The notes below the pieces were generated by a model. It saw only the letters and a program-made list of their open reading frames with translations, had not been told where the DNA came from and did not search any database. From an uncultured Verrucomicrobia subdivision 3 bacterium (GTDB lineage: Bacteria > Verrucomicrobiota > Verrucomicrobiia > Limisphaerales > UBA11358), in the NCBI GenBank assembly GCA_903875465.1, contig CAIQWB010000051.1, positions 1 through 51,968 of the forward strand: 51,968 nt of DNA, in the 5' to 3' direction. The position numbers were made by a program, and so were the translations under genes. Positions 9,285 through 39,723 of the stretch are shown in pieces (within the stretch, counting starts at the first letter, position 1; every line of letters starts with the position of its first letter).

Positions 9285-9982
9285 GGACTGGCCAGATCAA
9301 TTTGCCGGGCCAGCGCAAAATCCTTCTCCGAGAGTCCCCCCGCGTCGTGAGTGGTGAGCGCCAGGGTCACCCGGTTCCAGCGAATATCAATATCCGGGTG
9401 ATGCGCCGCCGCCTCGGCCAGGCTGGCCACCTGATGCACAAACGTCATCGCGCCCAAAAAATCTTTGAACTGAAAGGTGCGCGTGATCGCCTCCCCCTGG
9501 CGCCGCCAGGCCGGCACGGTCAGGAAGGCCGAGGGCAAACGCTCGACGGACAGGCGGTCACCAGCGACCCGCAGCAACGGGGGCGGCGGCGCCAGCTCGG
9601 CCAGCCGCGGGGGCGGGCCCGACCGGTTCACGGGGGCGGACCGGGAAATGGCCATGGCTTCCTGCACCAGACTGATGCTGGTGCTCAGGGACCACAGCCA
9701 GGCCAGGCCAAAAAACAGCACCCCGGCCTGCCACCAAAAAGCCGGCACTGGCGGGGCATCCGTGCCATTCAGGGCGGCCGTCATGGGGCCCATGGTGGCT
9801 TTAAACATCCACGTGGTAATCAGCAAAAAGCCCGTCACGGAAGCGCACAACTGGCCGGCCCCGGCAAACTTTCGTCCGCCCATGAACGAACCCAAACCGG
9901 GCGTGGCAAACTGATTAATCCCCAGATAGGTCCACGCCCGGGTGACTGTCAGGCTGCGACCAGTGGCGGAAAAGAGGGCCAT
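9281..9982 (-). CDS. Membrane protein fused to a pterin-4a-carbinolamine dehydratase domain
   Basis: The 233-residue product has an N-terminal part with NQFATPGLGSFMGGR and two hydrophobic helices (CASVTGFLLITTWMF and FWWQAGVLFFGLAWLWSL). After a proline-rich linker, a C-terminal PCD/DCoH domain of about 95 residues follows. Its signature is clear: LSVERLPSAFLTVPAW, then EAAAHHPDIDIRWNRVTLALTTHDAGGLSEKDFALARQID. PCD enzymes recycle 4a-hydroxytetrahydropterin and normally are about 100-residue soluble proteins. Start 9982 is 7 bases after the stop of the GYF-domain gene, so both form an operon. No aromatic amino-acid hydroxylase lies nearby, so the role of the anchored domain is open. Confidence 0.82.
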   Translation of the reverse strand: MALFSATGRSLTVTRAWTYLGINQFATPGLGSFMGGRKFAGAGQLCASVTGFLLITTWMFKATMGPMTAALNGTDAPPVPAFWWQAGVLFFGLAWLWSLSTSISLVQEAMAISRSAPVNRSGPPPRLAELAPPPPLLRVAGDRLSVERLPSAFLTVPAWRRQGEAITRTFQFKDFLGAMTFVHQVASLAEAAAHHPDIDIRWNRVTLALTTHDAGGLSEKDFALARQIDLASP

Positions 9983-9989
9983 GGGCGGG

Positions 9990-10670
9990 TTAGTGGAACT
10001 GCCCCTTGATGCCCGGTTTGCGGAGGGCCACAATCGCCCAAATGCCGAAGGGCAGGCCCAGCAAGCACATGGGCGTCATGCAGGGCAGGATGGCCAGAAT
10101 GGCCGCGATCAAACTGAATTCGTAGTTCCGCAGGGCTTTCATGTGCCAGGCACCCAGGGCAATGAGCACGGAGATGGCCAGCATGAACAGGTCGTTGCCC
10201 ACGGAAAAGGCCGTGCCGCAAAAGAATTTGATCATGGGACCATTGAGCATGGCCTGCACCTGGGGATCTTTCACATCCACCATGGGCGTGACCAATTTCG
10301 TAAACTCCTCAAACTTATGGTTCGGCGTAAAGGCATCGCCCAGCAAAATATAAAGGGACCACAGGCTGTTGAGCACGCCGGTGACAAGCAGGGAGGAGGC
10401 CGGGCTGCGGACCACGTCCAGGGCGTCTGCTGGGCTGCCCTCGCGCGCCCGGCTCGGCAGGGCGGTCAGCGGGGGCGGGGTGGTGCCCCGGGGCGTGGGA
10501 GCGCTGGCAAATTCCGGGAAGGTCGCGAGGGGGCGCCACTCGGTGTCGCTATCGGACCGCATCAAGGAATTGGCATCCAGCCGGCCTTCCGCCTGCCATT
10601 GCCGCACTTCTTCCGCGGTCACCGGACCGTATTCTTTTTTGTCCCCGCCGATGATGGTATAGTTCGCCAT
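9990..10670 (-). CDS. GYF-domain (DUF4339-type) membrane protein
   Basis: The 226-residue protein begins with a GYF_2/DUF4339 domain (MANYTIIGGDKKEYGPVTAEEVRQWQAEGRLDA), in which the GPVT and W positions are diagnostic. A Pro/Thr-rich linker follows, then at least three hydrophobic segments in the C-terminal half. The last segment (MCLLGLPFGIWAIVALRKPGIK) is typical of DUF4190-like tails. GYF-type domains bind peptides. It probably sits in the inner membrane with the GYF domain in the cytoplasm. It precedes the pterin dehydratase fusion by 7 bases. Confidence 0.85.
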   Translation of the reverse strand: MANYTIIGGDKKEYGPVTAEEVRQWQAEGRLDANSLMRSDSDTEWRPLATFPEFASAPTPRGTTPPPLTALPSRAREGSPADALDVVRSPASSLLVTGVLNSLWSLYILLGDAFTPNHKFEEFTKLVTPMVDVKDPQVQAMLNGPMIKFFCGTAFSVGNDLFMLAISVLIALGAWHMKALRNYEFSLIAAILAILPCMTPMCLLGLPFGIWAIVALRKPGIKGQFH

Positions 10671-21355: not shown

Positions 21356-22591
21356 TCAGATAAACTCATACTGCTCAATCTTCCCCGCCCGCCGCCCCGC
21401 GCCCGGTTCCGCCACCTCGGGATATTCAAACACCCGGCCCTCGTAATTACGCAACACCACGCGGTCGGCATTGTGGCTCAGCACGGTCTCCGGGTTCACC
21501 GGAATCTTCCCGCCCCCGCCCGGCGCGTCGATCACATACTGCGGCACCGCATAGCCTGTGGTGTGGCCGCGCAATTGCCGCATGATCGCCAGCCCTTGCC
21601 GCACACTCGCCCGCAAATGCGCCGACCCGGCAATCAAATCGCACTGGTACAGGTAGTACGGCTTCACCCGGCACATCAGCAGCTTTTGCACCAGCGCCCG
21701 CATCGTCACCGGGTCATCGTTCACCTGCTTCAGCAGCACCGACTGGTTGCCCAGCGGAATCCCCGCCTCCGCCAGCCGGCCCAGCGCCGTCCGCACCTCC
21801 GTGGTCAGCTCCCGCGGATGATTGGCATGAATGCTCATGAATAACGGATGAAACTGCTGCAGCATCGCGCACAATTCCGGCGTGATGCGCTGCGGCAGGA
21901 AAATCGGAATGCGCGTGCCAATGCGCAAAAACTCCACGTGCGGAATCGCCCGCAACCGGCTCAGCAGGTTCTCCAGCTTCTCATCGCTCAACAACAATGG
22001 ATCACCCCCACTCAGCAGCACATCGCGCACCTCCGGATGCGCCGCAATATACGCAATCTGACGGTCGTATTCCGGATGAAAATCATAGCCACTGGCGTTG
22101 CTCACCAGCCGGGAACGGGTGCAGTACCGGCAGTAGGCGGCGCACCGGTCCGTCACCAGAAACAGCACCCGGTCCGGATACCGGTGCACGAGCCCCGGCA
22201 CCGGCGAATGCGCGTCCTCACCGCAGGGATCGCTCAATTCCCATTCCGCCGTCGCCATCTCCGCCAACTGCGGCACCACCTGCTGCCGGATCGGACACTG
22301 CGCCGCCGCCGGCTGGATGAGATTGAAAAAGTAAGGTGTGATGCCCAGGGCCAGCTTGTGATTCGCCTGCTGCGCGCCCGCGCGTTCCGCCGGGGTGAGA
22401 TTGGGCAGCAACCGCTCCAATTGCGCCGCCGTGGTGATGCGCTGCTTCATTTGCCAGCGCCAGTCCTGCCAGTCCGCGTCCGGCACGTGCGCCCAGGGAC
22501 CGCGCCCCGCTGAATGAAATTGTTTAAGCTCGTGAAACCGGCGGTCCGCCTCCGGATCGCCGCCGCCATCCGCTATTGGATCGGACTGCAT
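21356..22591 (-). CDS. KamA family radical SAM protein (lysine 2,3-aminomutase-like)
   Basis: The 411-residue protein has the radical-SAM cluster CAAYCRYC (C150, C154, C157). SGGDPLLLSDEKLENLL binds S-adenosylmethionine, and NQSVLLKQVNDDP contains the PLP-binding Lys. RVKPYYLYQCDLIAGSAHLR contributes substrate-binding residues. Length and motifs fit lysine 2,3-aminomutase, which interconverts L-lysine and L-beta-lysine. No acetyltransferase (AblB) or EF-P gene is adjacent, so the physiological substrate is uncertain. A consensus-like promoter lies so close to the ATG that the mRNA would be nearly leaderless. The first 50 bases of the gene and its promoter form copy A of a 103-bp repeat. Confidence 0.9.
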   Translation of the reverse strand: MQSDPIADGGGDPEADRRFHELKQFHSAGRGPWAHVPDADWQDWRWQMKQRITTAAQLERLLPNLTPAERAGAQQANHKLALGITPYFFNLIQPAAAQCPIRQQVVPQLAEMATAEWELSDPCGEDAHSPVPGLVHRYPDRVLFLVTDRCAAYCRYCTRSRLVSNASGYDFHPEYDRQIAYIAAHPEVRDVLLSGGDPLLLSDEKLENLLSRLRAIPHVEFLRIGTRIPIFLPQRITPELCAMLQQFHPLFMSIHANHPRELTTEVRTALGRLAEAGIPLGNQSVLLKQVNDDPVTMRALVQKLLMCRVKPYYLYQCDLIAGSAHLRASVRQGLAIMRQLRGHTTGYAVPQYVIDAPGGGGKIPVNPETVLSHNADRVVLRNYEGRVFEYPEVAEPGAGRRAGKIEQYEFI

Positions 22592-22644
22592 GTGCCATTA
22601 AATATAAATGGGGAACCGGGCGTGTCAAGTTGCCCGGCGGACCG
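22542..22644. repeat. 103-bp direct repeat, copy A (kamA promoter and start)
   Basis: This stretch recurs at 23514-23616 in the same orientation with only two mismatches by my count: T/G at position 10 of the repeat, and G/A just upstream of the start codon. It covers the first 50 bases of kamA and 53 bases upstream. Homology stops abruptly on both sides. Confidence 0.95.
22601..22628 (-). promoter_or_regulatory. kamA promoter
   Basis: Reading the minus strand, a perfect -35 box TTGACA (22628-22623) and a -10 box TATATT (22606-22601) are separated by 16 bases. Transcription would start about 22594, only a few bases before the kamA ATG at 22591, which predicts an almost leaderless message. 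The AT-rich -10 stands out in GC-rich DNA. Confidence 0.7.
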
Positions 22645-22823
22645 GTCCCGGGAAGTGGAAGGAAATTGACCAGAGTAACGCGCAAGAAAACCGGCATTGG
22701 CGAGTCATCGCCGATGTGCGACCGCCGAATGACCATTACCATCCTCCTGCGCCAAGGCTACGTCGGTCAGAAGGATGGTTGGCTCTGGGAACTTAATAAG
22801 ACCAATGTTTCTCAAATGTTCTT

Positions 22824-23396
22824 TCATGGCCAGGTATGCTGCAAGCAAATGTCCGACTTGCCATCAAACTCGCGCACGGCATAACGCCCCGCAAACTCGG
22901 CTATCGAACCTGGCTGCCCATCGCCCATGACTGCGACCATGCTGTTGCAAAAGTGGTACGTGCTGTAATACCAGCGCCCGTCCGAACCGTGCGCCAGGAA
23001 TAAATGGTCAATGAAGCCATCATTAAAGCCATGATGAAACGCATAAACCATAAACTCGCCATTGGTGAGCAGCAGTACCTGCTCGTGCGTCCAGCCAAAA
23101 TCTCGGTTCGGGGTCGGATGCCGCATCTCGTCGATCTCCGTGACCACTTCCGCGCTCGTCATGGCGGTCTGGGCGATCTGCCGCAAAGCGCCCTCCTTCC
23201 ACACCGCCCGTGCCTGCTCATACCGGTGCTTCACCACCACCCGGCCACCCGCCAGCACCAGCACCATGAGGCCAGGGACCGCGAGCCAGATAATCAGCTT
23301 GCGGCGAATCGCTCCACGATGGCCATGCGCACTCATGTGGCCTAAAACGAATTTAACAGCACGGTTTGTTTCCGCCATTGGAACCTGCGGCCACAT
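22824..23396 (-). CDS. Membrane-anchored protein of unknown function
   Basis: I do not recognise this protein of up to 190 residues. A basic stretch and one hydrophobic helix (KLIIWLAVPGLMVLVLAGG) lie near residues 33-51, indicating an N-terminal anchor with the rest outside the cytoplasm. The C-terminal half contains WTHEQVLLLTNGEFMVYAFHH and DGRWYYSTYHFCNSMVAVM, rich in aromatic residues. The start could be 23396, 23378 (MAETNRAV) or 23336 (MSAHGHRG); none has a good ribosome-binding site. It is the only gene in the first accessory slot between kamA and its duplicated promoter. Copy B of that promoter lies upstream on the same strand and could drive it. Confidence 0.6.
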   Translation of the reverse strand: MWPQVPMAETNRAVKFVLGHMSAHGHRGAIRRKLIIWLAVPGLMVLVLAGGRVVVKHRYEQARAVWKEGALRQIAQTAMTSAEVVTEIDEMRHPTPNRDFGWTHEQVLLLTNGEFMVYAFHHGFNDGFIDHLFLAHGSDGRWYYSTYHFCNSMVAVMGDGQPGSIAEFAGRYAVREFDGKSDICLQHTWP

Positions 23397-23474
23397 GTTT
23401 CAGACTTTTCAACCTGAGGTCAAACCTAAACCGGGAACGGAGCGTGTCTGGTGGCCTGGCGTGCCGCTCCCCAC

Positions 23475-23526
23475 CCTAGCCGGCCTGACGCGCCGTTTGC
23501 AACCCCGCTTCCACGGTCCGCCGCCG
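23475..23526. repeat. 52-bp repeat of the 3' end of the secreted-protein gene at 27770
   Basis: This segment matches 27769-27820 with one mismatch (23479/27773). On the minus strand it encodes AGLQTARQAG and the stop codon, that is, the last codons of the gene at 27770-29227. Here they have no gene body attached and run straight into copy B of the kamA-start repeat. The two repeats overlap at CGGTCCGCC (23514-23522). Confidence 0.93.
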
Positions 23527-23616
23527 GATCGCCGCCGCCATCCGCTATTGGATCGGACTGCATGTACCATTAAATATAAATGGGGAACCGGGCGTGTCAA
23601 GTTGCCCGGCGGACCG
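23514..23616. repeat. 103-bp direct repeat, copy B (orphan kamA start)
   Basis: Near-identical to 22542-22644. It retains the ATG and the first kamA codons, then switches into the 3' end of the unrelated gene represented at 23475-23526. A chimeric frame of about 45 codons (MQSDPIADGGGDPAADRG...) could be read from it on the minus strand. I regard that as a by-product of the junction. Confidence 0.95.
23573..23600 (-). promoter_or_regulatory. Duplicated kamA-type promoter
   Basis: Copy B keeps the -35 TTGACA (23600-23595), the 16-base spacer and the -10 TATATT (23578-23573). It points on the minus strand toward the unknown membrane-protein gene at 22824-23396, which it could now transcribe. 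It is divergent from the restriction-modification gene. Confidence 0.6.
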
Positions 23617-23683
23617 CTTAATTACCGCACCAGCTTGCTTTGGGTGTCATGCTTGCCCCTGACGACATTCATTGGTTAATATC

Positions 23684-26600
23684 ATGCCCATGTCGAGCCA
23701 AGCCACTTTTGCATCGTTTGAAATAGAACTCAACCGGCTCGTGGAATCCTTTGGCCGGCGCCTGAACGAACTCAAAAGCACCGAATACAGCGAGGCCAAA
23801 CTCCGGGACGACTACCTCAACCCCTTCTTTCGCGCTTTGGGCTGGGACATGGAAAACCGCGCGGGGCTCATCCAGAAGGAGCGGGAAGTGGAGATCGAAA
23901 GCCCCACCCAAATTGGCGGCGGGCGCAAGCGCGCTGATTATCTCTTCCGCGCCCAGTTGCGCGACCGGTTCGTTTGCGAGGCTAAAAAGCCGGCGGAGGA
24001 ACTCCACGCCCGTTATGCGTTTCAAGCCAAACGCTATGCCTGGAACAAGGGCGTTTGGGTGGCCATCCTCACCGACTTCGAGGAATTCAAAATTTACATC
24101 GTCGGCGGCAAGCCCCATTTGGACGAACCGGAAGTGGGCCTCTGGGAGGCCTGGCACTACTCGCAATACCCGCTCTTCGCCCGCAAATTGTGGGATTTGT
24201 TCGCGCAGGAAACCGTGGCCGGCGGCAGCCTCGACCGCCTCATTGAATCCCTCCCCAAGAAACCCACCGGCAAGGGCAAGCTCCGGCAGCAATGGCTCCT
24301 CCGCCCCGACCGCACCCGGTCGCTGGACCAGGATTTTCTGGAATTTCTCGATGAAGCCCGCCGCGAACTCGCCTCCGACCTCCTCCGCCAGAATAAACGG
24401 TCGGAAATGCTGGAGCACAACAAGCTGAACGAAGCCGTCCAACACATCCTCGACCGGATTTTATTCCTGCGCATTTGCGAGGACCGGGATATTGACACTG
24501 GCACCCGGCTCCAGTCCATCGTGGAAACGTGGCGTAACCATACCGGCCATGACGAGGCCGGCCGCCGCGCCCGCCAGCAACCCCTGGATCTGCGGGAGGA
24601 AGCCCCGGCCGATTTCGGCCCCGGCGACATCCGTGCGCCCAAAGACTCCCTCTGGCGGGCGGTCGTCCGGCATTTCCGCGCCCTGGACCGTCGGCCCCCC
24701 TCGCATGTGCCCTTCTTCAACGGCAACCTGTTCAAGCCGCATTTTAGCGAAACCCTGCTGCTGACCGATGAATGGCTGGCCGGGTTCATTGGGGAATTGA
24801 GCGATGAGGAAACACCCTACCTGTTCAACGTCATCTCCGTGGAAATTCTCGGCAGCGTCTATGAGCGCTTTCTCGGCAAAGTCGTCCGGCCGCAAGGCTT
24901 GGGCGTCACCATTGAGGAAAAGCCGGAAGTCCGCAAGGCCGGGGGCGTCTATTACACCCCGCGCTACATCGTGGATTACATCGTCGAGCAAACAGTGGGC
25001 AAGTTGCTGGAGGGCAAAACGCCCAAGGCAACCCTGGAACTCAAGCTGCTCGACCCCGCCTGCGGTTCCGGCTCCTTCCTTATCCGCGCCTTTGAACGCG
25101 TCTGCGAACACTGGCAGCGCTGCCTGACGACCGATTTGCGCACTGTGGTAGGAGACGAGGTGACGAGTCTCAAATCAACGGAGCCGTCCAAGGCCAAAAC
25201 TACTTCCCCTGCGCTCAAAGACTGGCAGAAACGCAACCGGCCAGTCTGCTGGGTGGAGGAGACCACCGGCGACGTGCATTTGACCGTGGACCTTAAACGC
25301 AAAATCCTGACGCAAAATATTTTTGGGGTGGATTTGGACGGAGCCGCCGTGGAGGTAACCCAGCTTTCGCTCTACCTCAAGATGCTGGAAAACGAAAACC
25401 GCACCACCCTGCAACGCCAGCGCGAACTGCTCGCCGTCCCCAGCGACATCGCCCTGCTGCCACCATTGCAGGACAATATCAAATGCGGCAACTCCCTGAT
25501 TGCCTCTGATTTTTCCATGATCCCCGAGGACCTCATTCGGGTGCATGCCTTCGACTGGCCGGTGCAATTTTCCGCCATCATGAAGGCTGGCGGGTTTGAT
25601 GCAGTGGTGGGGAATCCGCCATACATTCCAATTGAGACGATGGAAGAAAATGAACGAGGATATTACCAAGGTGCATATCCTCAACTTGAACGTAAATTCG
25701 ACACAGGAGTGATTTTCATACTTCAAGCACTGCGCCTGGTCAAACTAACTGGTTTGGTTGGATACATTTCATCAATCACATGGGAAACTGGAGAGAATTT
25801 CTCAAAGCTCCGAGAAGTGATGTTCAAGAAATGCGGTGTTGTAGAAGTTATTAATCTTCCTTTTAATACATTTGCCGATGCATATGTTGATACTGGAGTG
25901 TATATATTGGCCGGCCGGCCAACATCAGAATACCATATATATCGTTATCACAAAAAAGCTAAAATCGATTCTCTGAAGAACGCTGCGCCGATTACAGTTT
26001 CTACCAGCTTAATCACCCCTCCAGATTTCCGCCTTGTACTAGAACCAGCGGCACAGAAAATTCTCTTAAGAGCTTTAAAAAGCGATAAATTTAAAGCGCT
26101 TGGTGACCTTACAAAATCGACCCAAGGGTTGGCCGCAGACAGGTTTAAGCGTAGCTCTACAGCAAAATCGGCGGAATGGTATCCATTTGGGGAAACAGCC
26201 CAAGCGTATCGCTATGACTTTGCTGTTGAGGAAAGCAGTTTTGCCTATATGCGTGACAACCCCTCCTTGAAGCAGTTCTACGAAGCAGAACCCAAAATAC
26301 TGATTAGGCGAATCATTAATCGGCAGGATCGTTTGGATGCTTGTTATTGTGAAGAAAAGATGGTCTTCAAAAAGGACATCAATCCATTTGTTTTGACACT
26401 TTCCAAACCTGGGGCGAAATATGTTCTTGGAATCTTAAACAGTAAATTAATTTCTTATCTTTATATCAATACTTCTGCCATAGCCACCAAAGACGATTTT
26501 CGACAAACAACCCTTGCAGAATTAAGGCGTCTTCCAATTCCTCTCACAGGCTTAACAAAGGATGACAAAGCCATTCACGATAAAATGGTTTCCTTGGTAG

Positions 26601-26794
26601 ACAAAATGTTGGTTCTGATGCCAAAGCTTAGCGTTGCCACCACCGAGGCGGAAAAGTCCACCCTGCAAAACGTGGTCACAGCCACAGACCAACAAATTGA
26701 TCAACTCGTTTATGAGTTGTACGGGCTCACCCCGGAGGAAATTGCCCTGGTGGAAGCTCCCGCCACCCCCTCTCTCAGTCCTGAACCCAAATGA
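23684..26794 (+). CDS. Type IIG restriction-modification enzyme (fused nuclease, N6-adenine methyltransferase and specificity)
   Basis: The 1036-residue protein combines three functions. An N-terminal HsdR/PD-(D/E)XK-like nuclease has ADYLF (D85) and FVCEAKK (E99, K101). A helical connector follows. The gamma-type adenine methyltransferase has motif I DPACGSGSF (from D457) and motif IV NPPY (from N644). The C-terminal TaqI/Eco57I-like region should hold the target-recognition domain. It would cut unmodified invading DNA and methylate host sites. ATG 23684 or 23690 is the likely start, since upstream TTG 23672 is weak. From about 25600 to 26635 the gene is visibly richer in A and T than the rest, implying a replaced specificity module. 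Its stop overlaps the next gene (ATGA). BREX PglX is related, but no other BREX gene is present. Confidence 0.88.
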   Translation: MPMSSQATFASFEIELNRLVESFGRRLNELKSTEYSEAKLRDDYLNPFFRALGWDMENRAGLIQKEREVEIESPTQIGGGRKRADYLFRAQLRDRFVCEAKKPAEELHARYAFQAKRYAWNKGVWVAILTDFEEFKIYIVGGKPHLDEPEVGLWEAWHYSQYPLFARKLWDLFAQETVAGGSLDRLIESLPKKPTGKGKLRQQWLLRPDRTRSLDQDFLEFLDEARRELASDLLRQNKRSEMLEHNKLNEAVQHILDRILFLRICEDRDIDTGTRLQSIVETWRNHTGHDEAGRRARQQPLDLREEAPADFGPGDIRAPKDSLWRAVVRHFRALDRRPPSHVPFFNGNLFKPHFSETLLLTDEWLAGFIGELSDEETPYLFNVISVEILGSVYERFLGKVVRPQGLGVTIEEKPEVRKAGGVYYTPRYIVDYIVEQTVGKLLEGKTPKATLELKLLDPACGSGSFLIRAFERVCEHWQRCLTTDLRTVVGDEVTSLKSTEPSKAKTTSPALKDWQKRNRPVCWVEETTGDVHLTVDLKRKILTQNIFGVDLDGAAVEVTQLSLYLKMLENENRTTLQRQRELLAVPSDIALLPPLQDNIKCGNSLIASDFSMIPEDLIRVHAFDWPVQFSAIMKAGGFDAVVGNPPYIPIETMEENERGYYQGAYPQLERKFDTGVIFILQALRLVKLTGLVGYISSITWETGENFSKLREVMFKKCGVVEVINLPFNTFADAYVDTGVYILAGRPTSEYHIYRYHKKAKIDSLKNAAPITVSTSLITPPDFRLVLEPAAQKILLRALKSDKFKALGDLTKSTQGLAADRFKRSSTAKSAEWYPFGETAQAYRYDFAVEESSFAYMRDNPSLKQFYEAEPKILIRRIINRQDRLDACYCEEKMVFKKDINPFVLTLSKPGAKYVLGILNSKLISYLYINTSAIATKDDFRQTTLAELRRLPIPLTGLTKDDKAIHDKMVSLVDKMLVLMPKLSVATTEAEKSTLQNVVTATDQQIDQLVYELYGLTPEEIALVEAPATPSLSPEPK

Positions 26795-27240
26795 CCGATA
26801 GTCCGGCACCCTCTCCGTCTGTCTCGCCCGGCCAATCCCGGCGGCCAAAAGTGTTGCGGGTTAGCCTGGGTGGCTTTGGGCCTAATTGGGAAGTGAAATA
26901 CCTCGGCAAAGGCCGCCTGCGGTATGCTTATTCCGCTGGGGCGCTCTTTGACCGGTCCGGCACCATTGTCGAACCCACCCCCGCCCAGTGGGAGCAATTC
27001 TGGCGGGAGCTGTCGACGATTGGCTTCTGGGATTGGGCCGGGGAATACCTGCCCAAGGAGGATATTTTGGATGGGTTGTGCTGGTCGCTGGAGGTGGCGG
27101 TGGCCGGCCAGTCCTTAATCTCGCGGGGCGACAATGCCTACCCGGGCGGACAGCATTGCGCTTACGACAAAAACAGTGAGTTTTATTTATTTCTGGCCGC
27201 TCTGGCCCGCTTGACGGGCTGCCGTAAATTAGTGCGATAA
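26791..27240 (+). CDS. Small protein of unknown function coupled to the restriction-modification gene
   Basis: The 149-residue product is not a family I can name. After a Ser/Pro-rich N-terminal tail it has VLRVSLGGFGPNWEVKYLGKGRLRYAY, then QWEQFWRELSTIGFWDWAGEYL and ILDGLCWSLEVAVAGQSLISRGDNAYPG. The last part resembles small stand-alone proteins with a conserved W-S-x-E and G-x-N-A-Y-P pattern. No signal peptide or membrane segment is seen. It starts inside the stop of the restriction-modification gene, so it is translated from the same message. A helper, controller or independent defence role is possible but unproven. Confidence 0.75.
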   Translation: MTDSPAPSPSVSPGQSRRPKVLRVSLGGFGPNWEVKYLGKGRLRYAYSAGALFDRSGTIVEPTPAQWEQFWRELSTIGFWDWAGEYLPKEDILDGLCWSLEVAVAGQSLISRGDNAYPGGQHCAYDKNSEFYLFLAALARLTGCRKLVR

Positions 27241-27247
27241 TTTTCCT

Positions 27248-27270
27248 CCCTGGACAGCCGTTGTCCAGGG
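27248..27270. terminator. Perfect 9-bp hairpin between the two small genes
   Basis: CCCTGGACA and TGTCCAGGG flank a five-base loop (GCCGT). There is no T-run after it on the plus strand; the flanking TTTTCC lies on the upstream side and would be an A-run on the other strand. It may be an attenuator, an operator palindrome or a weak terminator for the gene pair upstream. Confidence 0.4.
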
Positions 27271-27296
27271 TCCCCGGCCATACTGCCGGCACTATT

Positions 27297-27728
27297 ATGG
27301 GATATCTAATCGAACTGGAGCCACTGACCGCGCCCTTTCTGGAGCGCAATGCTGCCCGCGCCGTCCGAAAAAGTGTTGGCCACGCCTGGCGGGCCATCCT
27401 GCCGACCGCCCTGGAGCAGGATACGTTACTCATGCCCGATGTCATGGCTGAAACCGTGGTGGCCGAGGCAGAGCGGTTTCTCCATGCGGACCTGCCCGCC
27501 GGCTGGGCGGTCCGGCTGGCCGTGCGCGCGGAACACCTGTATGGGGCCAACCGCCATTTTAAGCGCACCCTGAACCGGCCCGGCAATCAGGGCCGGAACG
27601 CCTTGTACCGGTACCTGCGGCACTGGACCGCCGGCTGGCTCCAGCGGGAGCAAAACCCCTTGTTCCAAAGGCTGCCACCGGCCTATGCCCTGGGCCGCCG
27701 CCTGCCCCCTGGCCAGGTCCCCGGTTAA
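27297..27728 (+). CDS. Small cytoplasmic protein of unknown function
   Basis: This 143-residue basic protein has no family I recognise. It begins MGYLIELEPLTAPFLERNAARAV and is mostly helical by composition, with Arg-rich segments (FKRTLNRPGNQGRNALYRYL, then WLQREQNPLF). No signal peptide or membrane helix is visible. It follows the gene at 26791 after 56 bases containing a perfect hairpin, so it may be separately regulated. Its TAA stop abuts a solitary end of the 227-bp MITE-like family. It may form part of the same accessory module as the restriction-modification gene. Confidence 0.65.
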   Translation: MGYLIELEPLTAPFLERNAARAVRKSVGHAWRAILPTALEQDTLLMPDVMAETVVAEAERFLHADLPAGWAVRLAVRAEHLYGANRHFKRTLNRPGNQGRNALYRYLRHWTAGWLQREQNPLFQRLPPAYALGRRLPPGQVPG

Positions 27729-27754
27729 GCCCGAACTCCGAAAGTAAAATGACT
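27729..27754. repeat. Solitary terminal repeat of the 227-bp MITE-like family
   Basis: GCCCGAACTCCGAAAGTAAA and the following ATG-ACTGG match the left end of the elements at 37202 and 39143 with one or two changes. The preceding TAA resembles the 3-base target duplication of the first full copy. No matching right end is present before the next gene, so it is a truncated remnant at the border of the restriction-modification module. Confidence 0.8.
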
Positions 27755-27768
27755 GGTCTGCGCCAAAT

Positions 27769-27820
27769 CCTACCCGGCCTGACGCGCCGTTTGCAACCCC
27801 GCTTCCACGGTCCGCCGCCG
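27769..27820. repeat. 52-bp repeat, native copy at the 3' end of the secreted-protein gene
   Basis: Partner of 23475-23526. Here the sequence is continuous with the body of the gene transcribed from 29227, so this is the original location and 23475-23526 is the duplicate. Confidence 0.93.
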
Positions 27821-29227
27821 CGCGTCCAGCGCATCCAGTCGCCGCACAAATTCCCGCGCCCGCAAATGCACCACGGCGGTCGCTGCCCGCCGCCCCGAGG
27901 TCACCCGCCGGGGCGGCGCCAGGCTTTCCCCCAAGTACCCCGCCAGCACCTGGCAATATTCATCCGTGAGCGCAATATACTGGTGCGCCATCCGCAATTC
28001 CGCCATCCGCAAATCATGCAACCGCGCCTCCAGCACCTCCGTCTGATGCGCCGGGCTGAAATCCCGCACCACGGCCTGCAAGGGAATGCTCGCGTGCCGC
28101 GGCAGCGCATTCGACGTCGCGCGAATCGCCACCGGCACCTGCAACAATTCGTTCAACCGGCTCGCACTATACGCCGGTGTCCAGGCCGCCCCCGGCTCGT
28201 GCGCCTGAAAACTCGTTGCCGCCAGCGCCCACCATTTTTCCAAATCCACCGGCCGGGGGAATTCCTGGCGAAACGCCACCTGAAACGCCGTCTGCCAGTT
28301 ATACCCCTGCGGCAAAATTTCCAGCATCTTCCGCAGCCGGGCCGGTCCGTCATTCAGCCGCAGTAATTCCACCACCAGCAACTGCGCGCTTGCCTGATAC
28401 ACGCCCCCGTCCTGCCCCGCAATTTGCGCCACCGTCGGCCAGCACATCTGCTCGTAAGTCAGCACCGGATGCTTCCGCAACACCTGCCGGGCCGCTGCCA
28501 GCGGGTCCAGCTCATGGTCATGCGCCGCCGGCCGCGTGCGGGTCGGCTGGTCGATCACACCCTGCGGGGCCGTCACCACCACCTTCGCCAGTTCATTCCG
28601 CAAGAGCTGGCGCGACAGGCCGTCAATCAACCAGGCGGGCAGTTCGGCACAATGCCCGTCGGCACTGCTGCGGCGGTTGGCCAGCTCCAGGAGCAGTGCC
28701 CCGGTCATGCCCCGCATATATCGGTCCGCCGCCACCACATCCGGCAATTGCACCAGATAACTCCAGCTCCGGTCAATCGGCCGCGCCACCACGGTCACCT
28801 GCTCGTCCGTGTACAACGCCGGCCGCAGTGCCAGATAAATTTTCCCCTGCCAGTTCGGCCCCACCGGCACCCCCAGCGTGCGATATAGCGATTGTTTGAT
28901 GCGCTCCGCCGAAACCGAGAGCAACGCCGGCTCCAACCGCACAAAATTCGCATTCGTGGTCACGGACGGCAGTCTTAACAACGGGGATTTTTCCGCCGAA
29001 CCCGTCACCACAAACTGCCCGGAATAGCTCAAAGCGAGCTGCTCCCGTCCCGGCAATGCTGGCAGTGCGGGCACTGTCGCCGGCGTCTGGGCCCTGGCCA
29101 TCAAAGGGGCGGCCAGCCATAAAAGCGCCAGCATCAGGCCGCCGGCCCCACCCCGTCGCCCGCGTCCGTTAACGGGCGCCCGCCGGGTCACCGTCACCCC
29201 CCGCTTTCGTTGGCTGTAACCGCACAT
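27770..29227 (-). CDS. Secreted protein of unknown function
   Basis: The 485-residue protein has an N-terminal basic tail followed by GLMLALLWLAAPLMARAQTP, a signal peptide or anchor. The body contains PAWLIDGLSRQLLRNEL, resembling the helix of peptidase-MA-like gluzincins (usually W-L-x-E-G-L), but no HEXXH is present. The C-terminal third (LHDLRMAELRMAHQYIALTDEYC to the end) is helical and rich in Arg and Ala. Start 29227 (MCGYSQRKRG) is the nearest good ATG; a later internal start before the hydrophobic segment is possible. It is divergent from the carboxylesterase gene. Its last codons are duplicated at 23475-23526, which ties it to the kamA locus. Confidence 0.75.
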   Translation of the reverse strand: MCGYSQRKRGVTVTRRAPVNGRGRRGGAGGLMLALLWLAAPLMARAQTPATVPALPALPGREQLALSYSGQFVVTGSAEKSPLLRLPSVTTNANFVRLEPALLSVSAERIKQSLYRTLGVPVGPNWQGKIYLALRPALYTDEQVTVVARPIDRSWSYLVQLPDVVAADRYMRGMTGALLLELANRRSSADGHCAELPAWLIDGLSRQLLRNELAKVVVTAPQGVIDQPTRTRPAAHDHELDPLAAARQVLRKHPVLTYEQMCWPTVAQIAGQDGGVYQASAQLLVVELLRLNDGPARLRKMLEILPQGYNWQTAFQVAFRQEFPRPVDLEKWWALAATSFQAHEPGAAWTPAYSASRLNELLQVPVAIRATSNALPRHASIPLQAVVRDFSPAHQTEVLEARLHDLRMAELRMAHQYIALTDEYCQVLAGYLGESLAPPRRVTSGRRAATAVVHLRAREFVRRLDALDARRRTVEAGLQTARQAG

Positions 29228-29372
29228 GTTTAAAGTACTGTAACACCTGCCCCGGCCAAGGCAACCTCGCAAACCTGCGGTATCGCCAGCCGGTGGCCGG
29301 TACACCTTGACACGGCCCCTCCACCCAGAGATGGTAACCCCGGCACCGCTTCCGGCGTATGCCTGTTGGATT

Positions 29373-30875
29373 ATGCGATGGATCATCCTGACCGCCGTGC
29401 TGGCGCTTGGTCTCCCCAATAGCCGGGCCGTACCCGCCCAAAAGGTGCTCACCGCCGTGACCGGCGGGGTGCTTGCCGGCGAACGAAACGGCGCCATTAC
29501 CAGTTACAAGGGCATCCCCTTTGCCGCGCCGCCGGTTGGCCCGCTCCGCTGGCGGCCGCCCCAGCCGGTGCCACCGTGGACGGGGGTGCGGCCGGCCACC
29601 CAGTTTGCCCCCGCCCCCCTGCAAAGCCGGCTGGTCGCGACTCTGCTGGGCGTGCCCTGGCACTTCAGCGAGGACTGCCTGTATCTGAATGTCTGGACCC
29701 CCGCCACCAACGCGACCCAAAAGCTCCCGGTAATGGTTTGGCTTTACGGCGGAGCCTTCAACTTTGGGTCCACCGCCCAGCCCCTTTACGACGGCACACA
29801 TCTGGCCGAACAAGGGGTGGTCGTGGTTTCGGTGGCCTATCGGCTGGGAGTTTTTGGTTTCCTCGTGCATCCCGAACTGACCCAGGCGGGTGCCCCGGGA
29901 AACTTTGGCATCCGCGACCAAATTGCCGGCCTGCAATGGGTGCACGACAACATCGCCAGCTTTGGCGGCGATCCCGGGCAGGTGACCCTCTTTGGCGAAT
30001 CGGCGGGCGGCCTGTCCGTGGGTTTGCTCGTCACTTCCCCCCAGGCCAGAGGCCTGTTCCAGCGCGTCATTGCCGAAAGCGGTGCGCTGGCCCCGCAGAA
30101 GAAATTGGCGGCCGCCGAACCGGAAGGCGTGGCCTTTTTCGCGAAACTGAAAGTCAAAGACCTGGCCGCGGCGCGGGCGCTGCCCGCCCGGGATATTCTC
30201 AACGCCAGTTTCTTTGCCACCGTGACGGTTGATGAGGAATTATTTGCCCCTGACCCGTATCAATGCCTGAAGGCTGGCCAGGCGAATTCCACGCCCATCC
30301 TCCTCGGCTTCAATTCCGATGATGGCGGATTATTCGTGTGGGGCCGCAAGACCCCGGCGGACTTCACCAATGGCGTTCGCCAGGCCTTCGGCGAAAACGC
30401 CGGCAAAGTCCTGGCCCTTTACCCGCACGCGAACCAGCCGGAGGCAACCCATTCCGCCAAAGCCGCCTTCCGCGATGTCGCTTTTGCCTGGCCGGTTTGG
30501 CAGTGGGCCAGCCTCCAGACCGAACTCACCACGAATGCCGCGTTCGTTTACCTCTTTGATCAACACTCCTCGTTTTGGCAGCCGGATGGAGCGATGCATG
30601 CCGCCGAGCTGGGTTATGTGTTTGACAACCTCAAATGGCCAAATCGCGAAGCTGCCGAATTGGCCGGACGGATGAGCCGCTATTGGGTCAATTTTGCCCG
30701 GACCGGCAATCCCAACGGACCGGGCCTGCCGGCCTGGTCGCCTTTCAACCGAACCAATCATGACTTCATGTATTTCGGGGGACCTCCCCGGATGGCCCCC
30801 ATGCTGGACCTGCCGCAGATCGAAAGGCTGGCCCCCGAAATCGAACTGTTTTGGAAAACCGGGCCGGGCAGGTGA
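29373..30875 (+). CDS. Secreted type B carboxylesterase
   Basis: The 500-residue alpha/beta hydrolase has a signal peptide (MRWIILTAVLALGLPNSRAV). The family signature follows: SYKGIPFAAPPVGPLRW, EDCLYLNVWTP and the nucleophile elbow FGESAGG. The oxyanion hole is in WLYGGAFNFGS. The catalytic His lies in HAAELGYVF. Where most members have Glu in the N-x-D-E-G motif, this one has NSDDGGLF, so the acid residue appears to be Asp. It would hydrolyse short-chain or aromatic esters outside the cytoplasm, perhaps deacylating plant or algal polysaccharides. It is co-oriented with the downstream fucosidase. Confidence 0.93.
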   Translation: MRWIILTAVLALGLPNSRAVPAQKVLTAVTGGVLAGERNGAITSYKGIPFAAPPVGPLRWRPPQPVPPWTGVRPATQFAPAPLQSRLVATLLGVPWHFSEDCLYLNVWTPATNATQKLPVMVWLYGGAFNFGSTAQPLYDGTHLAEQGVVVVSVAYRLGVFGFLVHPELTQAGAPGNFGIRDQIAGLQWVHDNIASFGGDPGQVTLFGESAGGLSVGLLVTSPQARGLFQRVIAESGALAPQKKLAAAEPEGVAFFAKLKVKDLAAARALPARDILNASFFATVTVDEELFAPDPYQCLKAGQANSTPILLGFNSDDGGLFVWGRKTPADFTNGVRQAFGENAGKVLALYPHANQPEATHSAKAAFRDVAFAWPVWQWASLQTELTTNAAFVYLFDQHSSFWQPDGAMHAAELGYVFDNLKWPNREAAELAGRMSRYWVNFARTGNPNGPGLPAWSPFNRTNHDFMYFGGPPRMAPMLDLPQIERLAPEIELFWKTGPGR

Positions 30876-30918
30876 AATCAGCCGGCCATTACCGGCCATT
30901 ACCGCTCGCTGATTTTTC
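30875..30918 (+). terminator. Possible intrinsic terminator after the carboxylesterase gene
   Basis: AAATCAGC (30875-30882) can pair with GCTGATTT (30908-30915), followed by TTCCC. The loop holds a tandem GGCCATTACC duplication. The stem is short, so this is a weak call. Confidence 0.4.
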
Positions 30919-31122
30919 CCGGTCCATCGGCGGGCATGCCAGCGCCTTAACCTCACCGAACTTTACCGGGCCAATTTCCCGGGAGGTTGTATGCCCCTGG
31001 ATGGACGGGGGCTTGCCGCCTGTTCTTTAAGGTATACATTCATGGAACGGCCTGGTGCTTGCAAGTTCAGATTGACGCTGCCCGGCTCGCGATGCAACTT
31101 AAGGGCCGTCCGCAACTTTGTT

Positions 31123-32526
31123 ATGCGCCTGCGCCTGTTTGTAATCATAACCTCATTCTGGTTCGTCGCCCTGCCGTCCCCCGGCGAGCCGGCGGCCCGC
31201 CCGCCCGCCACTCCCGTCATTACTGCCACCGAGGCGGACAAACTGGCTTGGTTTAAAAATGCCAAATTTGGCATGTTCATCACCTGGGGACTTTACTCCG
31301 TGCCCGCCGGCAGTTGGCACGGCCTCACGGAAAACCATCCTTACGGGGAATGGATTGAATGGGCCCTGGATATTCCCCACGCCGATTACGCGGCCCTGGC
31401 CCAAACCTGGAACCCCCGCCAGTTTGATGCCGAGGCCTGGGTCACCGCGGCTGCCTCGGCGGGCATGAAGTACCTGCTCATCACCGCCAAATTCCATGAT
31501 GGCTTTTTGATGTACCCTTCCCGCCTGACGCCTTACAACCTCCGCGATGCCACCGCCTGGCCGCACGACCCCGTCCAGGAACTGGGCGATGCCTGCGCCC
31601 GCCACAACCTGAAGTTTGGCGTTTATTGGAACCACGTCTATGACTGGCAGGATCCCCATGCGCTCCGGCCGGACTGGCGGCACCCCGGCGCCTCCGCCAC
31701 CGACATCAAACACGCCCCCGGCCGGGATTTGGACAAGTATATCAACGAAGTCTCCCTCCCCCAGCTCCGCGAACTCCTGCTCACCCACCCGCAAATTAGT
31801 TTTGTGTGGTTCGACCAGGCCGGCAAAACCCCGGCCTTGACACCCGCCCGCGCCCAGCAATTCGCCGACCTGATTCATGCCATCAATCCCCGGATTATCT
31901 TCAACAGCCGCATCGGCCCCTGCCCGAGCGACTACCAGTCCGAGGGCGACAACGAAATTCCCACCGGCCAAAACCACCAGCCTTGGGAAACCGCCGGCAC
32001 CATGAACGCCACCTGGGGCTACAAACAGCAGGACACTCATTTCAAATCGGCCGCCACTCTCCTCCATAATCTCATCGATATCGCCAGCAAAGGGGGTAAC
32101 TATATTCTAAATGTCGGCCCGACCGGCGAAGGAGTCATTCCCGCTCCCGAGCTGGAGCGGCTTCAAGTCATCGGCCAATGGCTCAAAGTGAACGGCGATT
32201 CGATCTACGGCACCCAGGCCAGCCCCTTCCCAAAGCCATTTGCCTGGGGCCGCGTTACCCAGCAGCCGGGGCAACTCTATTTGCATGTCTTCCCCTGGCC
32301 GGCGGAGGGTAAACTCCTGCTGCCGATAATCAATTCCTCCATCCGTGTGCGCTGGCTGGCCTCTGGAAAAAAACTGCCCGCGATGCCTACCCCGGATGGC
32401 TGGCAAATCACCCTGCCCGCCACCGCCCCCGACCCCATCGCCAGCGTCATCGCCGTCGATTGCACCAGACCGCTAGTATTCCCCAAAGCCAGCCCCGACG
32501 AACCCCCTCAGCCCGGCCCCCACTAA
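31123..32526 (+). CDS. Secreted alpha-L-fucosidase, GH29 family
   Basis: The 467-residue protein has a signal peptide (MRLRLFVIITSFWFVALPSPGEP). The GH29 signature is KFGMFITWGLYSVPAGSW, with KYLLITAKFHDGFLMYPS and YWNHVYDW following. The nucleophile Asp is expected in SFVWFDQAG. The NHQPWETAGTMNATWGY segment and YILNVGPTGEGVIP are also typical. GH29 enzymes release L-fucose from fucosylated glycans with retention. Start 31123 is chosen because it begins directly with the signal peptide. It lies about 250 bases after the esterase gene and may act with it in extracellular polysaccharide breakdown. Confidence 0.94.
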   Translation: MRLRLFVIITSFWFVALPSPGEPAARPPATPVITATEADKLAWFKNAKFGMFITWGLYSVPAGSWHGLTENHPYGEWIEWALDIPHADYAALAQTWNPRQFDAEAWVTAAASAGMKYLLITAKFHDGFLMYPSRLTPYNLRDATAWPHDPVQELGDACARHNLKFGVYWNHVYDWQDPHALRPDWRHPGASATDIKHAPGRDLDKYINEVSLPQLRELLLTHPQISFVWFDQAGKTPALTPARAQQFADLIHAINPRIIFNSRIGPCPSDYQSEGDNEIPTGQNHQPWETAGTMNATWGYKQQDTHFKSAATLLHNLIDIASKGGNYILNVGPTGEGVIPAPELERLQVIGQWLKVNGDSIYGTQASPFPKPFAWGRVTQQPGQLYLHVFPWPAEGKLLLPIINSSIRVRWLASGKKLPAMPTPDGWQITLPATAPDPIASVIAVDCTRPLVFPKASPDEPPQPGPH

Positions 32527-36873: not shown

Positions 36874-37198
36874 ATTGTAAAAGGAACAACGATTCTAGGC
36901 TATGGGGTACCCAAGGTCAAACATCCTTTATCCAACCTTGCTTGCCCATTTCACACCTTCCGCCCGCCCAAAAAATGCTCGCAAACCATTTTGGGACCCG
37001 GATTGCGGCTGCCCCGGGTTCCCGGCCAAAATCCATCCCCCCCGACTGAAAATGCGCCCTGCATCCTTCCGCCACCGCCCCGGTCGCTAGATTCCTTGCC
37101 CCTATTTGTCTGAAGTCGGCAAACAGGGGCAACTTCCGCCAGCGGATCCTGGAAAGTGGCGTTTTTCGCCATTTTAGGCACTGGAGCTCCATGGTTTT
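36874..37198. other. Intergenic region upstream of serA, containing an inverted repeat
   Basis: This stretch holds no credible gene. Its notable feature is an imperfect inverted repeat: TTGCCCCTATTTG (37096-37108) and CAAACAGGGGCAA (37120-37132), 13 bases with one mismatch and an 11-base loop. It may be an operator or a transcript hairpin. The serA promoter should lie at the left side, but I see no convincing boxes. Confidence 0.5.
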
Positions 37199-37201
37199 TA
37201 A

Positions 37202-37428
37202 ACCCGAACTCCGAAATTAAAATGGCTGGGATGTGTCAAGCTTTTGGCGCAGAAACACTTTGGAAAAATCGCCGGCCTGCCCGCAGTGGTCTGGTGAGAC
37301 TGCCTCGGCGCGCAGCGCGCATCCTTAAATGGGCAACTGCTTGGCAGCGGCTTGGGAAGCCAATGTTCCCAAGCGTTTATGCCCAAGCGATGGATGCCGA
37401 CCGGCCATTTTAATTTCGGAGTTCGGGT
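37202..37428. mobile_element. 227-bp MITE-like element, copy 1
   Basis: The element has terminal inverted repeats of about 25 bases; the outer 20 are ACCCGAACTCCGAAATTAAA on both ends. It is flanked by a direct TAA (37199-37201 and 37429-37431), consistent with a 3-base target duplication. Copy 2 at 39143 has the same length with about 16 substitutions and no indels by my count. No transposase is encoded. An inner hairpin, CTTGGGAA ... TTCCCAAG (37351-37373), is perfect here. Confidence 0.88.
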
Positions 37429-37545
37429 TAAACCTTACTCGGCTGGCCGGCATCAAACTGGATGGACAATCTTGAAAGTCTGAAACATCATCGCCGCATG
37501 GTGCAATTGCTCAAGCGCCCGCAGCGATCGAATCTCTGGTAAGCC

Positions 37546-39135: not shown

Positions 39136-39142
39136 GGCTTGA

Positions 39143-39369
39143 ACCCGAACTCCGAAAGTAAAATGGCTGGGATGCGTCAAGATGTTGGAGCAGAAACACT
39201 TTGGAAAAATCGCCGGCATACCCGCAGTGGTCTGGTGAGACTGCCTCTGCGCGCAGCGCACACCCTTAACTGGGCTACTGATTGGCAGCGGCTTGGGAAG
39301 CCAATGTTCCAAAGCGTTTATGCCCAAGCGATGGATGCAGACCGGCCGTTTTAATTTCGGAGTTCGGGT
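39143..39369. mobile_element. 227-bp MITE-like element, copy 2
   Basis: Same length, orientation and inverted termini as the copy at 37202. It is flanked by a direct TGA (39140-39142 and 39370-39372), again a 3-base duplication. The inner hairpin is weakened here by one change (TTCCAAAG). Most substitutions in the shared 63-codon open frame change the residue, so the frame is not under protein selection. Confidence 0.88.
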
Positions 39370-39723
39370 TGAATTGTTAACCCGGCGCTCTAAATAACTG
39401 CCTGGTCACGGCGTTCGGTTGGCACTTTGGCTCTCGGACATCTTTCCCCTCCGGCTCATCCCAAGCGCATGATTTGGCGCTGGATCGTCGCCCATAAGCC
39501 CGCCCCAGCCGTCGGGACCCAAGCTCAGGTTAAAGCGAATCAAACCTTATCAATGTTAGAAATGGGCGCGGATGGAATGGCCCGGTTCGCTCCAACCGCC
39601 TTGCCTGCCGATGGCCTTTTTGGCCTGCTCCTGCCCGTGGAACCTGGCAACGCGGTTTGATGCGTGCCCTTCGTCCGCTGCGTGGGCCACCCTCGCCTGA
39701 CCTAGATCCAACGAGTTCGCTGT
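39370..39723. other. Region without a supported gene
   Basis: About 350 bases lie between the second MITE-like element and the convergent end of the AddB-like gene. A 77-codon plus-strand frame (39427-39660) is open but low in recognisable signal, and no ribosome-binding site precedes it. I see no terminator or RNA gene. Confidence 0.45.

Follow-up and report, generated by a model that had tools for sequence, protein, structure and literature searches.

Results

The 51,968-nucleotide stretch analysed here, hereafter the window, is the whole of contig C51 (CAIQWB010000051.1) in the 5.3-Mb, 153-contig draft genome of an uncultured Verrucomicrobia subdivision 3 bacterium. Between two intact minus-strand genes, which we call sec and kamA, it holds two adjoining slots of unrelated accessory genes and, where the slots meet, a short relic in which the end of sec is fused to the start of kamA. 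The kamA gene (21356–22591) encodes a KamA-family radical SAM aminomutase (TIGR00238, 339 bits against a cut-off of 199) that reaches 484.8 bits with the lysine 2,3-aminomutase model TIGR03820, below its cut-off of 525.4. The product of sec (27770–29227), called 'secreted' only in an initial annotation of this DNA, is a conserved protein with no match in Pfam or NCBIfam. Our comparisons drew on 97 genomes and, within the genus, on 49, each set including the genome studied here, with one genome per species; sec is matched (E 1e-10) in 90 of the 97 and kamA (E 1e-60) in 46 of the 49.

The slots are delimited by repeats of the gene ends. Repeat A (22542–22644, minus strand) spans approximately the first 17 codons of kamA, whose start is at 22591, and 53 bp upstream; it is the functional copy and contains the promoter region P1, with a promoter match (TTGACA-16-TATATT, 11 of 12) that recurs in A'. 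Repeat B (27769–27820, minus strand) is the functional 3' end of sec with its stop codon. Between the slots and on the same strand lie their relics: B' (23475–23526), which retains the stop codon of sec and is identical to B at 51 of 52 positions, and A' (23514–23616), identical to A at 101 of 103. The initial annotation had described 23475–23526 as a copy of the sec end and 23514–23616 as one of the promoter and opening codons of kamA, joined as expected for head-to-tail units that run from the kamA start to the sec end, with unrelated cargo in the two slots; all of this holds.

Slot 1 (22645–23474, between A and B') carries a single open reading frame (ORF), gene X (22824–23396, minus strand), of 190 amino acids, labelled a membrane protein only in the initial annotation. 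Slot 2 (23617–27768, between A' and B) carries three on the plus strand: RM (23690–26794), a type IIG restriction-modification enzyme of 1034 amino acids, and two small genes, Y (26791–27240, 149 amino acids) and Z (27279–27728, 149 amino acids from this start). Both slots have a lower GC content (0.569 and 0.554, respectively) than the window (0.614), and they have no 12-mer in common on the same strand and one on opposite strands.

B' and A' overlap in the 9-mer CGGTCCGCC, which is found at 22542, 23514 and 27808. The microhomology is exact over 9 bp, with G or C at 8 of the 9 bases; extended by the next four bases (23514–23526), it has 12 matches in 13 between A and B, the odd base being T in A (22551) and G at the junction (23523), as in B. 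Because the junction carries the B version of this base, one of the two differences between A and A' is assigned to the join; of the three repeat differences in all, two (22594/23566 and 23479/27773) are divergence beyond it. A chance origin of the repeats is excluded: searched against the whole genome, the 103-mer returns itself at E 2.8e-48 and A' at E 1.4e-45, the next best match being at E 0.14, and 17 of 200,000 random pairs of points in the window, pairs less than 60 bases apart being skipped, share an exact run of at least nine bases. The reading frame fused across B' and A' ends after 45 codons. The promoter match in A' (23600–23573) is complete and oriented toward X; this spare copy appears to be a side effect, and a scan of the window gave four promoter-like sites against 2.8 in shuffles, a count not itself above chance.

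A related genome with the join away from kamA or sec, which the initial annotation had named as the finding that would tell against it, did not turn up: in a search that scored up to 16 candidates in each of the 49 genus genomes, the whole scar (23420–23616) was found only here, and 23 of the 48 others gave short GC-rich matches only (20–40 bases, E 8e-5 to 0.009). Within the genome itself, we scanned a sample of 43 stretches (843,777 bp) for places where two repeat pairs, each of at least 40 bases and at least 85% identity, meet chimerically, a search that scars as old as the relic P2 described below would escape. The kamA locus was the only such place, and the sample held no second junction of the B'A' type; one further locus that had been flagged (L138) was rejected, being made of copies of locally repeated elements.

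Slot 1 ends in a feature that the initial annotation had missed. Four bases from the copied sec stop lies P2 (23427–23471, minus strand), which we interpret as an older copy of the promoter region of kamA that has since diverged, as it matches 22605–22649 without gaps at 34 of 45 positions. Its score is 35, whereas 2000 dinucleotide shuffles gave no more than 25 and 2596 real pieces cut from the window no more than 26. In a genome sample of 849,279 bases, searched on both strands with A and A' excluded, it is the best match, the next best reaching 28 of 45. Having first surfaced among nine flank pieces compared, with an E value of 0.012 there, the match is to be read as strong but post hoc. 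In the sense of kamA, the left part of the locus reads B'-stop-P2-X-spacer-P1-kamA, and would accordingly be the old spacer with X inside it and the promoter region on either side. There are 11 mismatches in 45 positions between P2 and P1 but, beyond the join, only two in A/A' and B/B' together; X should therefore be older than the B'A' join, having entered first, flanked by the duplicated promoter region, with the join a recent event that probably followed much later. The idea that both cargos had entered at an identical insertion point was rejected, because slot 1 keeps the old spacer, in the form of P2, beside B'. The spacer between A and X (22718–22794) also matches two other sites in the genome at about 80% over 54–56 bases, and is a dispersed sequence.

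In most of the genus, sec and kamA are close neighbours. They lie on one contig with 66–551 bp between the protein matches in 31 of the 49 genus genomes, on different contigs in 12, and one or both are missing in four; in the remaining two, the genome studied here and G012, they are 5.2 and 12.0 kb apart, each time on one contig. Eleven spacers drawn from the 31 adjacent cases, three of them with starts projected from the alignment, measure 48–84 bp from stop to start in seven and 146, 181, 242 and 509 bp in the rest, and the TTGACA of the kamA promoter aligns in all ten relatives' sequences shown. Given the 31 adjacent cases, the interval must have begun as a short spacer, from which the 5.2 kb seen here derives; the ancestral order was sec, a short spacer with the kamA promoter, and kamA. 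This distribution, together with the lack of another B'A' scar in the part of the genome sampled, gives no support to the recurring exchange system that had been suspected at kamA.

Nor did the relatives reveal the same cargo at this place. G012, the closest relative by the protein identity of both sec and kamA, has an interval of about 12 kb (L053:3261–15218) that we considered as a counterpart and rejected as a separate rearrangement, because five of its intervening genes are collinear with contig C117 of the genome studied here (G000:C117); in G012 either kamA or this block has moved. The enlarged spacers of four relatives (L057, L065, L067 and L070) contain no relic of the sec or kamA ends beyond the overlap built into the query, except for a 17-base match in L070, and none of the 48 other genus genomes has an RM match (E 1e-100 or better) on a contig with sec or kamA.

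The cargo itself recurs elsewhere. X gives no match in Pfam, PADLOC, NCBIfam or PHROGs and a poor structure model (predicted local distance difference test, pLDDT, 56.5); among 49 other genomes searched it has homologues in three relatives (G008, G021 with two, and G056), all at loci other than sec–kamA. Three of these four loci have no direct repeats around X, and the fourth (L108) has two weak pairs (71–77% over 24–30 bases). RM matches the PADLOC model REase_MTase_IIG at E 4.9e-145 over residues 13–758, and Pfam Eco57I (105.5 bits) and TaqI_C (62.9 bits) above their cut-offs, as predicted for the fused methylase and specificity domains of a type IIG enzyme; residues 33–78 reach 19.9 bits with the HSDR_N nuclease model, below its cut-off of 25.1. 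Homologues of RM (E 1e-100 or better) occur in 10 of the 97 genomes, its own included, of Y in 7 (6 of the 96 others) and of Z in 17. Y has no match in the Pfam, PADLOC, NCBIfam and PHROGs scans. Z, whose model is helical (pLDDT 71.3) and found no match at E 0.001 or better in a fold search, has homologues downstream of type IIG genes, on one contig and within about 1 kb of an RM homologue in G031, G013, G001, G085 and G006, and is possibly a working partner of the enzyme. Each of X, RM, Y and Z has a single match in its own genome at the thresholds used. Since RM with Z (in five relatives) and X (in three) are found at other loci, both are accessory genes.

Direct repeats around three RM loci of relatives were also inspected: L111 has none, and those of L113 and L114 include copies of the RM 3' end. 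At these two loci (L113:9775–9966 and 10209–10412; L114:8795–8938 and 9427–9573) a second C-terminal end of RM lies downstream, resembling a displaced orphan end; they are two of the eight loci with a C-terminal match, out of 11 loci given.

On the sec side, slot 2 is bordered by another feature absent from the initial annotation, the end of a truncated copy of a dispersed 235-bp repeat element (27725–27756, 29 of 32 positions identical to the element end). Copies at 37198–37432 and 39139–39373 have terminal inverted repeats of about 30 bp and apparent 5-bp flanking repeats; we take the element to be akin to a miniature inverted-repeat transposable element. It is matched in 17 of the 43 sampled stretches, with 15 near full-length copies, and at least two of the matches reach a contig end.

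The 9-mer at the join had been proposed as a special exchange site, and the window by itself would encourage the idea: it holds eight copies against 1.45 expected, a number that none of 100 shuffles reaches, and A is bounded exactly by the 9-mer and its inverse, forming the only inverted pairs less than 400 bp apart in the genome sample. Five of the eight copies, however, lie in the repeats, and in the 843,777 bp the 9-mer is only mildly over-represented (37 found against 21 expected, rank 80 of 504 permutations of its composition). It is absent from the 11 printed spacers of the relatives, one of which is shown to 420 bases. The view of the 9-mer and its inverse as terminal inverted repeats or a special site is weakened by the genome sample and by these spacers; the enrichment in the window stands. 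The coincidence of the boundary is weakened further because, past the 9-mer, some bases of A' (AAGCGG, shared with two relatives) may be ancestral. No ORF of the slots matched an integrase, transposase or recombinase family, recombinases elsewhere in the genome not having been searched for, and the only tRNA gene found in the window lies at its left end. ComEC matches one ORF, DprA adjoins kamA, and a search for Ku gave no match; this combination fits DNA uptake without classical end joining, but proves neither.

Discussion

In homology-facilitated illegitimate recombination (HFIR), homology usually anchors one end and a short joint closes the other. Our best reading of the kamA locus is that two alleles of one slot, one carrying X and the other the type IIG module, became fused through homology at one end and through the 9-bp microhomology at the other. 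That the scar arose in this HFIR-like manner, by a one-sided illegitimate exchange of alleles at an ordinary intergenic slot, we hold to be probable, with considerable room for doubt. The microhomology to be looked for at the illegitimate joint of an HFIR product is present (9 bp exact, 12 of 13 with the adjoining bases). From the ancestral arrangement of sec, a short spacer with the kamA promoter, and kamA, a segment of about 0.8 kb with X would long ago have entered the spacer, leaving, by a presumed mechanism, promoter copies on the sec side (P2) and on the kamA side (P1). At a later time, a donor allele of this locus, with RM, Y and Z between sec and kamA, would have reached the cell as incoming DNA, perhaps by transformation or a similar route, and would have recombined homologously through sec on one side, while on the other the donor kamA 5' end would have been joined to the resident sec 3' end via CGGTCCGCC, if we have the direction right. 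Any resident sec sequence lost would have been replaced by the donor copy, and the product, from sec to kamA, would be sec-B-[Z,Y,RM]-A'/B'-P2-X-A-kamA, i.e. two alleles in tandem, with intact flanking genes and one chimeric relic.

Several observations agree with such a fusion of alleles, among them the closeness of sec and kamA in relatives, the order of divergence, the occurrence of both cargos at other loci, and the presence of ComEC and DprA with no match to Ku. The P2 relic sits where the original spacer should be, and the lack of a same-strand 12-mer common to the slots is as expected for two different alleles. The initial annotation had offered, as one of two options, that two copies of a duplicated segment lost complementary halves; the order of divergence and the absence of any shared residue of cargo favour the fusion of alleles over such duplication and loss. 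On the side where homology would have acted, sec is intact and continuous with slot 2, which an HFIR product requires but which does not by itself reveal a donor tract.

Other points weigh against this fusion. The donor allele was not observed, and neither sec-RM-kamA nor sec-X-kamA alone was seen among genomes that represent one per species and that in 12 cases of the genus have the two genes on different contigs. Compared with the relatives' spacers, P2 scores 10–14 and A 20–27, the identity of P2 thus depending on A alone. The genome is a draft of 153 contigs. HFIR is, according to PMC5361080, rare in experiments, with a frequency of 3e-10 reported for E. coli conjugation (PMC3240628), and in the latter account 56 of 60 Lac-minus E. 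coli clones gave the PCR product diagnostic of a duplication, not of the HFIR deletion, and were ascribed to single crossovers of circular DNA. The choice among a linear donor, a circle, and duplication with replacement is one of parsimony only.

Among the alternatives, the one that survives best, although we consider it unlikely, is a tandem duplication within the genome of the whole X slot (about 1 kb, from the sec end to the kamA start) at the 9-bp microhomology, after which the RM module replaced the interior of the sec-side copy. A tandem duplication would leave exactly this join, and copies that started out identical are consistent with just two differences beyond it. Slot 2, however, bears no trace of X, of P2 or of the 180-bp spacer, which obliges the second event to have removed the interior cleanly, and the scheme still needs either RM to have been available between flanks that match or a fortuitous insertion accompanied by a deletion. 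More doubtful again is the second option of the initial annotation, in which one allele was circularized at the 9-mer and a single crossover in a shared flank then integrated it. The product would be the same, and circular single crossovers are the explanation given for the partial target duplications of the 56 E. coli recombinants mentioned above, 109–950 bp long in the 14 sequenced (PMC3240628). Nothing that we found requires a circle, however; an extra excision step would be needed, the shared flanks are only 52 and 103 bp, and viral contigs yielded no exact match to the 26-base junction.

We give very little credence to a first duplication of about 160 bp, comprising the compact spacer and the adjoining gene ends, followed by independent insertion of X and RM, one into each copy. 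Such a compact spacer is present in relatives, yet this order predicts that A/A' and B/B' are older than X, and it is contradicted by the far greater divergence of P2 from P1, unless P2 mutated unusually fast or is no relic. An artefact of assembly or binning that joined the alleles of two strains in silico is just as improbable: the draft state of the genome and the repeats of 103 and 52 bp would invite one, but the copies differ and are hence distinguishable. A join of this kind, moreover, needs an overlap of 9–13 bases, which is below the usual word lengths of assembly. A dedicated site-specific exchange system acting on CGGTCCGCC has next to no claim on the evidence, since the enrichment of the 9-mer in the window and its inverted pairs around A are outweighed by the genome sample, the share of copies within repeats, the relatives' spacers, and the absence of a recombinase family from the slots and of another chimeric junction from the sample. 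The observation is real, and the locus is informative and well preserved, but known processes can account for it: the scar looks like the product of a familiar kind of imprecise exchange and not of a new exchange machine.

Integron cassette arrays are tandem units of cargo separated by short repeats. The two slots resemble them in just this respect (a comparison also made in PMC5361080), but differ in that neither an integrase family among the slot ORFs nor a special site of recombination was found. Closer parallels come from HFIR as described for arrays of immunity genes of the type VI secretion system (T6SS) in Vibrio cholerae (PMC5361080) and for dimorphic loci of E. coli and other species (PMC2884548), with one homologous end and one short join. 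Such logic has been proposed for successive displacement at the Vibrio loci and for the dimorphic loci; according to the Vibrio model, earlier genes are not lost but shifted aside, so that cargo of mixed origin accumulates in arrays, as here. What sets the kamA locus apart is its cargo, an RM module together with an unrelated gene flanked by two core genes, and its scar, a double relic in which the end of one flank is fused to the start of the other; the donor was not seen.

Restriction-modification genes are also known to insert with long target duplications (Nobusato et al. 2000, as cited in PMC1643837 and PMC3031569). As far as those citing accounts describe them, such insertions share with the kamA locus direct repeats (B/B', 52 bp, around [Z-Y-RM-A'], and P2/P1, 45 bp, around X), the lack of an insertion-sequence gene in the slots, and a single unduplicated target in relatives, here 31 of the 49 genus genomes, which are other species and not strains. 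The difference is that the repeat beside RM also includes part of the opposite flank (A'), and this indicates a donor allele at this very locus in preference to a free-standing insert. The core defence hotspots of Pseudomonas aeruginosa (PMC10250203) likewise have fixed core genes on either side of varied defence cargo, which homologous recombination in these flanks may move; because the kamA locus is compact in at least 31 of the 49 genus genomes, it is a local slot and not a demonstrated hotspot. How defence hotspots between core genes arise, and whether flank recombination moves them, is named in that source as still to be learned.

In this context, the locus can still be read as a history in two steps, in which cargo first entered, long ago, with duplication of the promoter region, and what appear to be two alleles were recently fused. 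More speculatively, and in our view improbably, slots might multiply in the manner of a ratchet: any one-sided exchange affecting a short spacer between core genes would add a slot and a B'A' scar of about 140 bp, and this scar would offer new homology for the next exchange. If this were so, arrays of defence and other cargo could grow between intact core genes without an integrase, and the scars would record the order of arrival. A literature search on illegitimate recombination at microhomologies in Verrucomicrobia found no papers, the kamA locus not having been searched for by name. Short chimeric relics between accessory blocks, in which the end of a core gene is fused to the start of the next, offer a possible signature for scans.

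Upstream of sec, the gene order cc272-FmdB-sec recurs in relatives. In the window, a carboxylesterase and an alpha-L-fucosidase gene (29307–32526), for which the repeat-pair scan reported no flanking repeat pair, lie between sec and FmdB, which are adjacent in many relatives.

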